Positions 23,162 through 24,984 of a stretch of DNA of 64,000 nt are shown here, piece by piece. Each line of letters begins with the position of its first letter. Position 1 is the first letter of the stretch. The stretch comes from Pelagibacteraceae bacterium AG-390-O04 (GTDB lineage: Bacteria > Pseudomonadota > Alphaproteobacteria > Pelagibacterales > Pelagibacteraceae). The notes beneath the pieces were generated by a model. It made no database searches and was not told the origin of the DNA. It worked only from the letters and a program-made list of their open reading frames with translations. The translations under genes were made by a program, and so were the position numbers. The stretch spans positions 1 to 64,000 of the forward strand of contig QCHE01000001.1 of assembly GCA_003278065.1 (NCBI GenBank), in the 5' to 3' direction.

Positions 23162-23908
23162 ATGATTATATTATCAATATTATTTTTTATAACAGCAATT
23201 TTATATTCAAGTGTTGGTTTTGGTGGAGGATCTACCTACTTGGCTCTTTTACTTATATGGGATATTCCTTACTTCATTTTTCCAATAATTGCGCTTTTGT
23301 GTAATATTATAGTAGTTTCAGGTAATTCTTTTAATTATATACGTGCTGGAAATCATAACTTTAAATTACTACTTCCTTTTTTAATAGGATCAGTTCCATT
23401 AGCTTTTTTTGGTGGAACATTAAAAATTGACAAAGATATTTTCGAAGTTCTATTATTTTTTGTTCTTTCTGTAGCAGGTATTTTGTTATTAATTAACAAT
23501 AAATCTTACTCAAGGGATAATTTAACAATTAAAAAATTAAATTTCTTTGTTTCTTTAATTATCGGTTCAGTCCTGGGATTAATTTCTGGAATTGTGGGAA
23601 TAGGCGGTGGAATATTTCTAAGTCCAATTCTTTTTTTACTTAGAGCAGAAAAACCAAAGATAATTGTTACAACAGCCTCCTTATTTATTCTGATCAATTC
23701 TATTTCGGGAATATTGGGACAACTTACAAAAGAAAATATTCTAATTGAATTATTAAATTATATACCTCTATTTATTTGTGTTTTTATAGGTGGGCTTTTA
23801 GGTAATTATTTAAACTTAAAAATTTTTAAAAATAGAGTTCTTGCAATAATTACATCTATATTGGTTATATTTGTATCAATAAGAATGGGAATTAGAATTT
23901 TTTTGTAA
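23162..23908 (+). CDS. TauE/SafE-family sulfite/anion exporter-like permease
   Basis: A 248-aa membrane protein with about eight helices and the internal repeat typical of the TauE/SafE family. The first half carries VGFGGGSTYLALLL (about 19-32), the second GIVGIGGGIFLSPILFLL (about 143-160). Family members export sulfite, sulfoacetate or related anions. It stands beside a molybdenum and sulfite-oxidation cluster, which fits sulfite handling, but substrate cannot be read from sequence. Only 14 bases separate it from the divergent moaB start. Confidence 0.87.
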   Translation: MIILSILFFITAILYSSVGFGGGSTYLALLLIWDIPYFIFPIIALLCNIIVVSGNSFNYIRAGNHNFKLLLPFLIGSVPLAFFGGTLKIDKDIFEVLLFFVLSVAGILLLINNKSYSRDNLTIKKLNFFVSLIIGSVLGLISGIVGIGGGIFLSPILFLLRAEKPKIIVTTASLFILINSISGILGQLTKENILIELLNYIPLFICVFIGGLLGNYLNLKIFKNRVLAIITSILVIFVSIRMGIRIFL

Positions 23909-23945
23909 ATTACATTTGATTAATTCCTAAATTTTAAATATAGTT

Positions 23946-23999
23946 TAGTTGCCGATTTGATCCTATTGCGGGCATAACAGCTAAAATGGAAATCCCATA
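23946..23999 (+). promoter_or_regulatory. SAM-II-type riboswitch, first aptamer of a tandem pair
   Basis: P1 is TGCC (23950-23953) with GGCA (23971-23974). Its loop carries the conserved GATTTGATCCTATTGC. The tail has AGCTAAAATGGAAATCC (about 23979-23995). GCTAAA pairs back with the TTGC of the loop and GGA with TCC, forming the H-type pseudoknot that binds S-adenosylmethionine. The GATTT...TATTGC...GCTAAA...GG core is the SAM-II consensus. It lies upstream of a second, related aptamer and the homocysteine methyltransferase gene. Confidence 0.85.
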
Positions 24000-24010
24000 A
24001 TTATCAATCT

Positions 24011-24069
24011 GCAGGCATTTGAACTATATTGTGCGCCTAGCATAATGCTGAAGCACTAAAAAAGTGAGG
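24011..24069 (+). promoter_or_regulatory. SAM-V-type riboswitch overlapping the Shine-Dalgarno site
   Basis: P1 is AGGC (24013-24016) with GCCT (24035-24038). The loop reads ATTTGAACTATATTGTGC. A small AGC/GCT hairpin follows at 24039-24049. GCAC (24053-24056) pairs with GTGC (24031-24034), and AGT (24063-24065) with ACT (24023-24025), giving a SAM-II-like pseudoknot. The pseudoknot ends on GTGAGG (24064-24069), the ribosome binding site of the next gene, so SAM would block translation. SAM-II/SAM-V tandems of this kind are known from Pelagibacter and marine metagenomes. Confidence 0.85.
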
Positions 24070-24075
24070 ATATTT

Positions 24076-24984
24076 ATGGACATTAATTTTTTTAAACAAA
24101 CTAGAATTTTAGATGGAGGAATGGGGCAAGAACTTCTTGCAAGAGGTATGGAACCTAATGGAACTTTGTGGAGTGCAAATGCATTGCTTCAAGACAAATA
24201 TCATCAACTATTACTGGATACCCACCTAGACTTCATTAAAGCTGGTGCAGAAGTGATTGTCACAACTACATTTACCACTAGGAAGTTAAGATTAAGAGAT
24301 AATAATGTAGAGGATAAATTTGAGTATCTAAATAATAAGGCAGGTGAAATTGCTCAAAAAGCAAAAAAACTCTATCCAAATACATTGATAGCTGGAGGGT
24401 TGCCACCTCAATATTTAACCTACGAAACTGACACAAGACCCGAAAATGAAATCAGGGATAATTTCTATCATCAAGCAAAAATACTTAATCCATATGTAGA
24501 TTTTTTTTATTTCGATGTTTTAAGCAGTGTTAAAGAATTTAAAATTGCAATCGAATGTATAAAAGAATTTGATAAACCATATTTAATTGGGGCCCACATA
24601 TCAGAAGGCACAAAATTACCAAGTGGTGAAAGTATTTCAGAAATCATAAATAGAATAGATCATGATAAACTGCTTGGAATAATCTTATCATGCATATCAC
24701 CTGAAAATTATGATTTGAATCTTAAAGAAATAAAAAATTTAAATGTTCCATTTGGATTTAAATTAAATGGATTTATAAAAACTAATCCAAAACCAAATTA
24801 CACCGGTGCCTTTAAAAAAAGTAAAACAGGAAATCCAAATGAATTTTTAGGTCAACGTAAGGACCTGACCCCAGATAAAATGGCAGAGTTTGCAAAAAAA
24901 TTTAAAGAAGCAGGTGCGACTATTCTGGGTGGATGTTGCGAAACAAGGCCTTCACATATTAATGCTTTTTCAAAACTTAAATAG
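24076..24984 (+). CDS. bhmT: Homocysteine S-methyltransferase (BHMT/MmuM family)
   Basis: Transfers a methyl group to homocysteine to make methionine. In SAR11 the SAM-V-controlled member is taken as betaine-homocysteine methyltransferase. The 302-aa protein begins ILDGGMGQELLARGM after a short lead and ends with the zinc ligands in ILGGCCETRPSH; a third ligand is the Cys in ILSCISPENYD. I use ATG 24076 rather than GTG 24064, because that GTG lies inside the Shine-Dalgarno site GTGAGG. SAM feedback by two upstream aptamers fits a methionine-forming enzyme. Methyl donor (betaine, DMSP or S-methylmethionine) is unresolved. Confidence 0.88.
   Translation: MDINFFKQTRILDGGMGQELLARGMEPNGTLWSANALLQDKYHQLLLDTHLDFIKAGAEVIVTTTFTTRKLRLRDNNVEDKFEYLNNKAGEIAQKAKKLYPNTLIAGGLPPQYLTYETDTRPENEIRDNFYHQAKILNPYVDFFYFDVLSSVKEFKIAIECIKEFDKPYLIGAHISEGTKLPSGESISEIINRIDHDKLLGIILSCISPENYDLNLKEIKNLNVPFGFKLNGFIKTNPKPNYTGAFKKSKTGNPNEFLGQRKDLTPDKMAEFAKKFKEAGATILGGCCETRPSHINAFSKLK

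Follow-up and report, generated by a model that had tools for sequence, protein, structure and literature searches.

A predicted compact tandem of SAM-II-like and SAM-V aptamers in SAR11 mmuM and metY leaders

SAR11 ranks with the most abundant groups of bacteria in the ocean. We analyzed a stretch of 64,000 nucleotides (hereafter the window) from a draft SAR11 (Pelagibacter) genome (31 contigs, 1.06 Mb in total). A gap of 167 nt between a TauE/SafE-family gene and a homocysteine S-methyltransferase gene contains a promoter-like site and two pseudoknot cores (Table 1). The downstream gene had been called a homocysteine methyltransferase in an earlier note on this DNA, an assignment borne out by its Pfam match, and its N-terminus matches that of the HTCC1062 gene behind leader L035, which is annotated as mmuM (PMC2704228). 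The start listed for this open reading frame, a GTG at 24064, falls within the second core, and the ATG at 24076 was taken as the start instead. The TauE/SafE-family permease gene (23162-23908) lies directly 5' of the leader in the same direction and may be linked to sulfur metabolism. The promoter-like site would place the start of the transcript at approximately the first base of the upstream core, which we refer to as E1. Most of 98 leaders carry a TATAAA-like -10 element equally far from E1 (T, A and A at -13, -12 and -10 in 83, 87 and 86%, respectively).

Table 1. Positions in the window of the leader features and of the gene that follows them.
Feature	Position	Strand	Basis or remark
Promoter-like TTGATT-17-TATAGT	23916..23944	+	Consensus scan
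E1, compact SAM-II-like pseudoknot, putative aptamer	23948..23992	+	Model R1, 65.1 bits (window copy in model)
P0 3' strand (alternative helix)	24003..24013	+	Pairs with E1 23950-23961; overlaps first base of SAM-V P1
SAM-V riboswitch aptamer	24004..24067	+	Rfam RF01826, 66.6 bits (gathering 41)
Shine-Dalgarno-like GAGG	24066..24069	+	Directly 3' of SAM-V P2a; read from sequence
mmuM-type homocysteine S-methyltransferase	24076..24984	+	PF02574, E 3.6e-52; ATG start

The second core is a clear member of the SAM-V family by its covariance-model match (RF01826; E 1.1e-8 over 64 kb) and is predicted to bind SAM. Its P1 (AGGC 24013-24016 / GCCT 24035-24038; loop ATTTGAACTATATTG) is accompanied by P2 (24030-34/24053-58), P3 (24039-42/24046-49) and P2a (24023-25/24063-65), and the element closes on GTGAGG (24064-24069), 6 nt ahead of the ATG. 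In the SAM-V mechanism, bound SAM forms P2a and thereby hides the ribosome binding site (PMC6061858). Many mmuM copies of SAM-V also contain CACU-AAAAA-AGUG (24054-24066 in the window), a possible hairpin that would rival P2 and end at the GAGG. The earlier note had placed two related pseudoknot cores in a row here, the second ending on GTGAGG; the P1 stems and loops of both cores, as well as this ending, were confirmed by the sequence.

E1 is a real element. With up to 3 mismatches allowed, the 23-mer GCCGATTTGATCCTATTGCGGGC matches once in the window and not at all in 100 shuffles. At least 119 stretches of public genomes contain a 22-base E1 core pattern, with all 80 among the matches listed named as Pelagibacteraceae or Pelagibacterales. 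The exact core pattern was absent from viral_contigs, and no phage copies were found there. A covariance model of E1 (R1, window copy included) matches 135 of 397 Pelagibacterales genomes. The fold consists of P1 (TGCC 23950-23953 / GGCA 23971-23974; loop ATTTGATCCTATTG), P2 (U23967-A23983, G23968-C23981 and C23969-G23980, with U23982 bulged) and P2a (U23961 C23962 C23963 / G23988 G23989 A23990). Standard pairs fill 92.6% of the pair cells in a 58-sequence alignment, and the pseudoknot pairs better than shuffled and slid controls. In an alignment of 65 leaders, AUUU, UAUUG and GCUAAA are invariant. The crystal structure of SAM-V shows SAM contacted by U8, U9, U10, A18, U20, G21, U47, A48 and A50 (PMC6061858), and each of these bases falls on a column of E1 that is invariant in 65/65. 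We also considered whether E1 controls a short upstream ORF, a candidate that was rejected since no ORF begins just past E1.

It is improbable, in our estimation, that E1 is a relic or scaffold past SAM binding, comparable to the ghost aptamers of glycine riboswitches. Although its P1 is only 3-4 bp long, and the SAM-II half of the bhmT tandem discussed below is silent in the full-length RNA (PMC11508383), such an origin is at odds with the invariance of the pocket columns, with the pairing of P1 and P2a, which is kept through two-sided changes in some lineages, and with the retention of E1 on its own in some leaders.

Which known class E1 belongs with is less apparent from Rfam. The SAM-II families RF00521 and RF01726 gave no match to E1 even at E<=10; thus, of the Rfam covariance search proposed in the earlier note, the SAM-V part held for the second half, while the SAM-II part failed on the first. 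Two sister copies of E1 score 15.6-16.7 bits with RF00521 (cutoff 36). However, the bhmT SAM-II of HTCC1062 (L033, 299-374, minus strand), which is reported to bind SAM with a KD of 1.2 uM (PMC5069961), itself reaches only 15.5 bits with SAM_alpha/RF00521 against this cutoff of 36. The silence of RF00521 on E1 therefore says little in this lineage, and surveys that rely on Rfam will miss part of the SAM-II elements of SAR11. We used R1 in turn against SAM-II-type and SAM-V aptamers. It matches SAM-II-type aptamers elsewhere with 33.7 (genus g2), 34.6 (family f25) and 36.1 bits (family f142), and the metX aptamer of family f2 with 17.5 bits, compared to ~15 bits at most for SAM-V. Judged by these scores (~16-36 bits in other genera and families vs ~15 or less), E1 is nearer to SAM-II than to SAM-V. 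With SAM-II (RF00521) it shares the GAUUU, UAUUGC and GCUAAA core, the pseudoknot topology and the lack of a P3 hairpin, but it differs in its 3-4 bp P1, its shorter 3' loop, the absence of a terminator and a score below the Rfam threshold. A duplicated SAM-V was rejected as the source of E1, which has neither P3 nor a 5-bp P2 and scores nearer SAM-II. The SAM pocket of SAM-V is common to SAM-II. The SAM-II kinship that the earlier note had claimed for the first half is thus backed by the R1 scores and the invariant pocket, and the binding core that it had claimed for both halves by the SAM contacts on invariant E1 columns.

We assembled 187 distinct E1 leaders, consisting of SAM-V loci from relatives together with genomes added by an E1 pattern search. 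Near-identical E1 lies ~60 nt upstream of SAM-V in 136 metY leaders (in one of these, L240, SAM-V was assigned by reading rather than by pattern) and 44 mmuM leaders; the remainder are 6 mmuM leaders without SAM-V and 1 metX-like leader. E1 is present in every metY or mmuM leader read from the window's genus with the exception of a single metY leader (L076), which carries canonical SAM-II; the metY leaders of genus g5 (L049, L052, L077 and L078) are also of the canonical SAM-II type. In HTCC1062 (G011, identified by SAM-V coordinates that agree with PMC2704228), E1 precedes both metY (L034) and mmuM (L035), whereas both leaders are given in the literature as SAM-V only (PMC2704228 Table 1; PMC5069961). 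The window's own genome (G000) bears a second compact tandem before metY (L001, contig 16, 1442-1567).

Some leaders contain aptamers of this kind in other settings. The six SAM-V-less mmuM leaders with E1 are from Pelagibacter (L120, L128, L129, L131, L133 and L208), indicating that E1 can exist without coupling, and some of them retain an E1-complementary linker (GAUCAAAU). Two minus-strand leaders, L136 (genus g8) and L272 (genus g2), have compact SAM-II-like aptamers followed by AAAUCG, and the aptamer in L136 precedes a metX-like gene. This AAAUCG could pair with either the CGAUUU of the aptamer or a CGAUUU close to the start codon, making a simple translational switch possible.

The 87 distinct SAM-V leaders that we inspected, a sample that leans to high-scoring SAM-V loci, fall into 69 compact and 18 bhmT-type leaders (L062 and L076, respectively, were classed by reading), and none is without an upstream partner. 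Compact leaders consist of E1, a linker of ~20 nt and SAM-V, and a T-run or terminator between the halves was found in 0/69. In contrast, canonical SAM-II is followed by an obvious hairpin and T-tract, and then by SAM-V, in 18/18 bhmT-type leaders. Likewise, no intrinsic terminator was found in 23850-24120 of the window. As a result, the suggestion of the earlier note that the first half acts on transcription and the second on translation is unsupported. Its statement that a marine SAM-II/SAM-V tandem is already published was correct, but the published architecture is the bhmT type, with a terminator. The original paper on this bhmT tandem of Ca. Pelagibacter ubique is reportedly that of Poiata et al. 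in 2009. The tandem is also described in PMC5069961, PMC9481103 and PMC11508383. In the tandems known to the authors of PMC9481103, an intrinsic terminator always follows SAM-II, and the compact form therefore appears to have gone unrecognized.

SAM-bound E1 might nevertheless stop transcription by other means (e.g. Rho or pausing), leaving SAM-V to block translation. The bhmT tandem works in this manner on paper (PMC9481103), and the metY leader L135 (G388, genus g9), which has an intrinsic terminator between an E1-like core and SAM-V, is a possible intermediate between the two architectures and could mean that a terminating ancestor gave rise to the compact form. Since the window and all 69 compact leaders are devoid of terminator-like sites and linker T-tracts, respectively, and since the linker is instead conserved for pairing with E1, we consider this division of labor unlikely.

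The pairing in question forms an alternative helix, P0, between the linker and the 5' strand of E1. For the window, the P0 duplex is predicted at -7.6 kcal/mol vs -3.5 kcal/mol for shuffled linkers, a marginal difference (p 0.055). The median for 135 metY leaders is -11.0 vs -4.2 kcal/mol (p<=0.05 in 98%) and that for 44 mmuM leaders is -7.8 vs -3.7 kcal/mol (p<=0.05 in only 52%), and P0 is part of the MFE structure in 127/135 and 34/44, respectively; the leaders are kin to one another, and these tests and counts do not represent independent events. The linker targets the E1 5' strand specifically, with a median of -10.5 compared to -2.5 to -4.6 for segments that do not cover it. In metY leaders, the last linker bases, immediately ahead of SAM-V P1, are UCGG(U/C), which complement (G)CCGA in E1; UCGG precedes SAM-V in 0/18 bhmT-type leaders. 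The solutions vary: E1-complementary linkers include AUCGGU, AUCAAAUAAGCAA and, in the window, AUCAAUCUGCA, with AUCAAUAAGCAA found besides the latter two among mmuM leaders. The mmuM leader of HTCC1062 (linker AAUUGGU, E1 ACCGAUU) is the sole case in which both sides of P0 have changed. Because E1 is almost invariant, covariation of the 5' strand is limited, and the case for P0 rests mainly on these different linker solutions and on the shuffles.

P0 also reaches SAM-V. In metY leaders it adjoins SAM-V P1 with invariant spacing, and the base at -1 pairs with the linker in 132/132, while that at -2 pairs with SAM-V P1 in 104/132 (79%). P0 thus takes in the first base of SAM-V P1 in these 104 of 132 metY leaders, as well as in 39/44 mmuM leaders. 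Since P0 uses both the P1 5' strand and the triplex strand of the pocket, it excludes folded E1. Locking E1 in a nested-fold calculation raised SAM-V P1 only slightly, from 0.023 to 0.042 for metY and from 0.062 to 0.099 for mmuM. A coupling in which P0 hinders SAM-V P1 would fit the geometry.

Given the two aptamers predicted from the sequence, the invariance of the pocket, the P0 complementarity and the lack of a terminator, we somewhat favor the view that the mmuM leader is a compact tandem composed of two SAM aptamers and one translational expression platform, with a switch helix between them. The only evident platform is the SAM-V ribosome binding site, and the lack of a terminator leaves other platforms possible. 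E1 would begin at approximately the first nucleotide of the transcript and fold first, with SAM-V emerging ~20 nt further on and ending at the ribosome binding site. P0 would represent the SAM-free state: when SAM is scarce, the E1 5' strand (UGCCGAUUUGAU) would pair with the linker before SAM-V, opening the E1 pocket and encroaching on SAM-V P1 by one or two pairs, and the gene would be on. When SAM is plentiful, we infer that nascent E1 would bind SAM and fold, blocking P0 and freeing SAM-V P1; SAM-V would then bind SAM, and the ribosome binding site would be occluded. The sign of the coupling, in which occupancy of E1 favors SAM-V, is part of this inferred scheme.

Alternatively, P0 may be merely the unbound fold of E1, with E1 acting alone as an independent sensor that affects, e.g., mRNA stability or, via its AAGGA-like 3' end, ribosome loading. 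The six mmuM genes preceded by E1 without SAM-V, some of them with the complementary linker, and the metX-type leaders of g2 and g8, with their compact SAM-II-like aptamers and similar alternative strand AAAUCG, are in keeping with this idea. We nonetheless find it rather doubtful: the position of metY P0 against SAM-V P1, its invariant spacing and its frequent pairing with the first P1 base exceed what E1 alone would need. Returning to the coupled tandem, we tentatively raise the broader possibility, toward which we remain more skeptical than convinced, that the metY and mmuM leaders of SAR11 are cooperative SAM sensors, in which occupancy of the first aptamer sets the response of the second via the linker helix.

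The pair in the window appears from its sequence to be a new form of SAM-II/SAM-V tandem that is common in SAR11. All 87 of the inspected SAM-V leaders are doubles, most of them without a terminator, whereas the literature consulted treats the metY and mmuM leaders of SAR11, those of the cultured strain HTCC1062 among them, as single SAM-V switches. If E1 binds SAM, this would be, to our knowledge, the first SAM tandem with one expression platform. In that event, only part of the system would be described by the SAM-V affinities in print and by the 149 tandems counted in PMC9481103, and, if the cooperative reading is true, the widely studied metY SAM-V has been characterized without half of its switch.

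The closest known system is the bhmT tandem, which resembles that of the window in placing a SAM-II-type aptamer ahead of a SAM-V that sits at the ribosome binding site, in preceding a methionine-cycle gene and in coming from the same lineage. It differs in its long-P1 SAM-II, intrinsic terminator and longer linker, whereas the tandem described here has a compact first aptamer, lacks a terminator and carries a linker that complements this aptamer. According to PMC11508383, SAM cannot bind the SAM-II half of the bhmT tandem on account of the linker, and synergy was not observed in vitro. That silencing offers a parallel for the proposed coupling, and the linker helix in turn offers a direct test of the unexplained SAM-II silence. 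Cooperative tandem aptamers with one expression platform have been tabulated for glycine and guanidine-II (PMC9481103 Table 1). Like these, the tandem described here would join two adjacent aptamers for the same ligand to one evident expression platform; unlike them, it would do so with two related but distinct SAM folds and a mutually exclusive linker helix.
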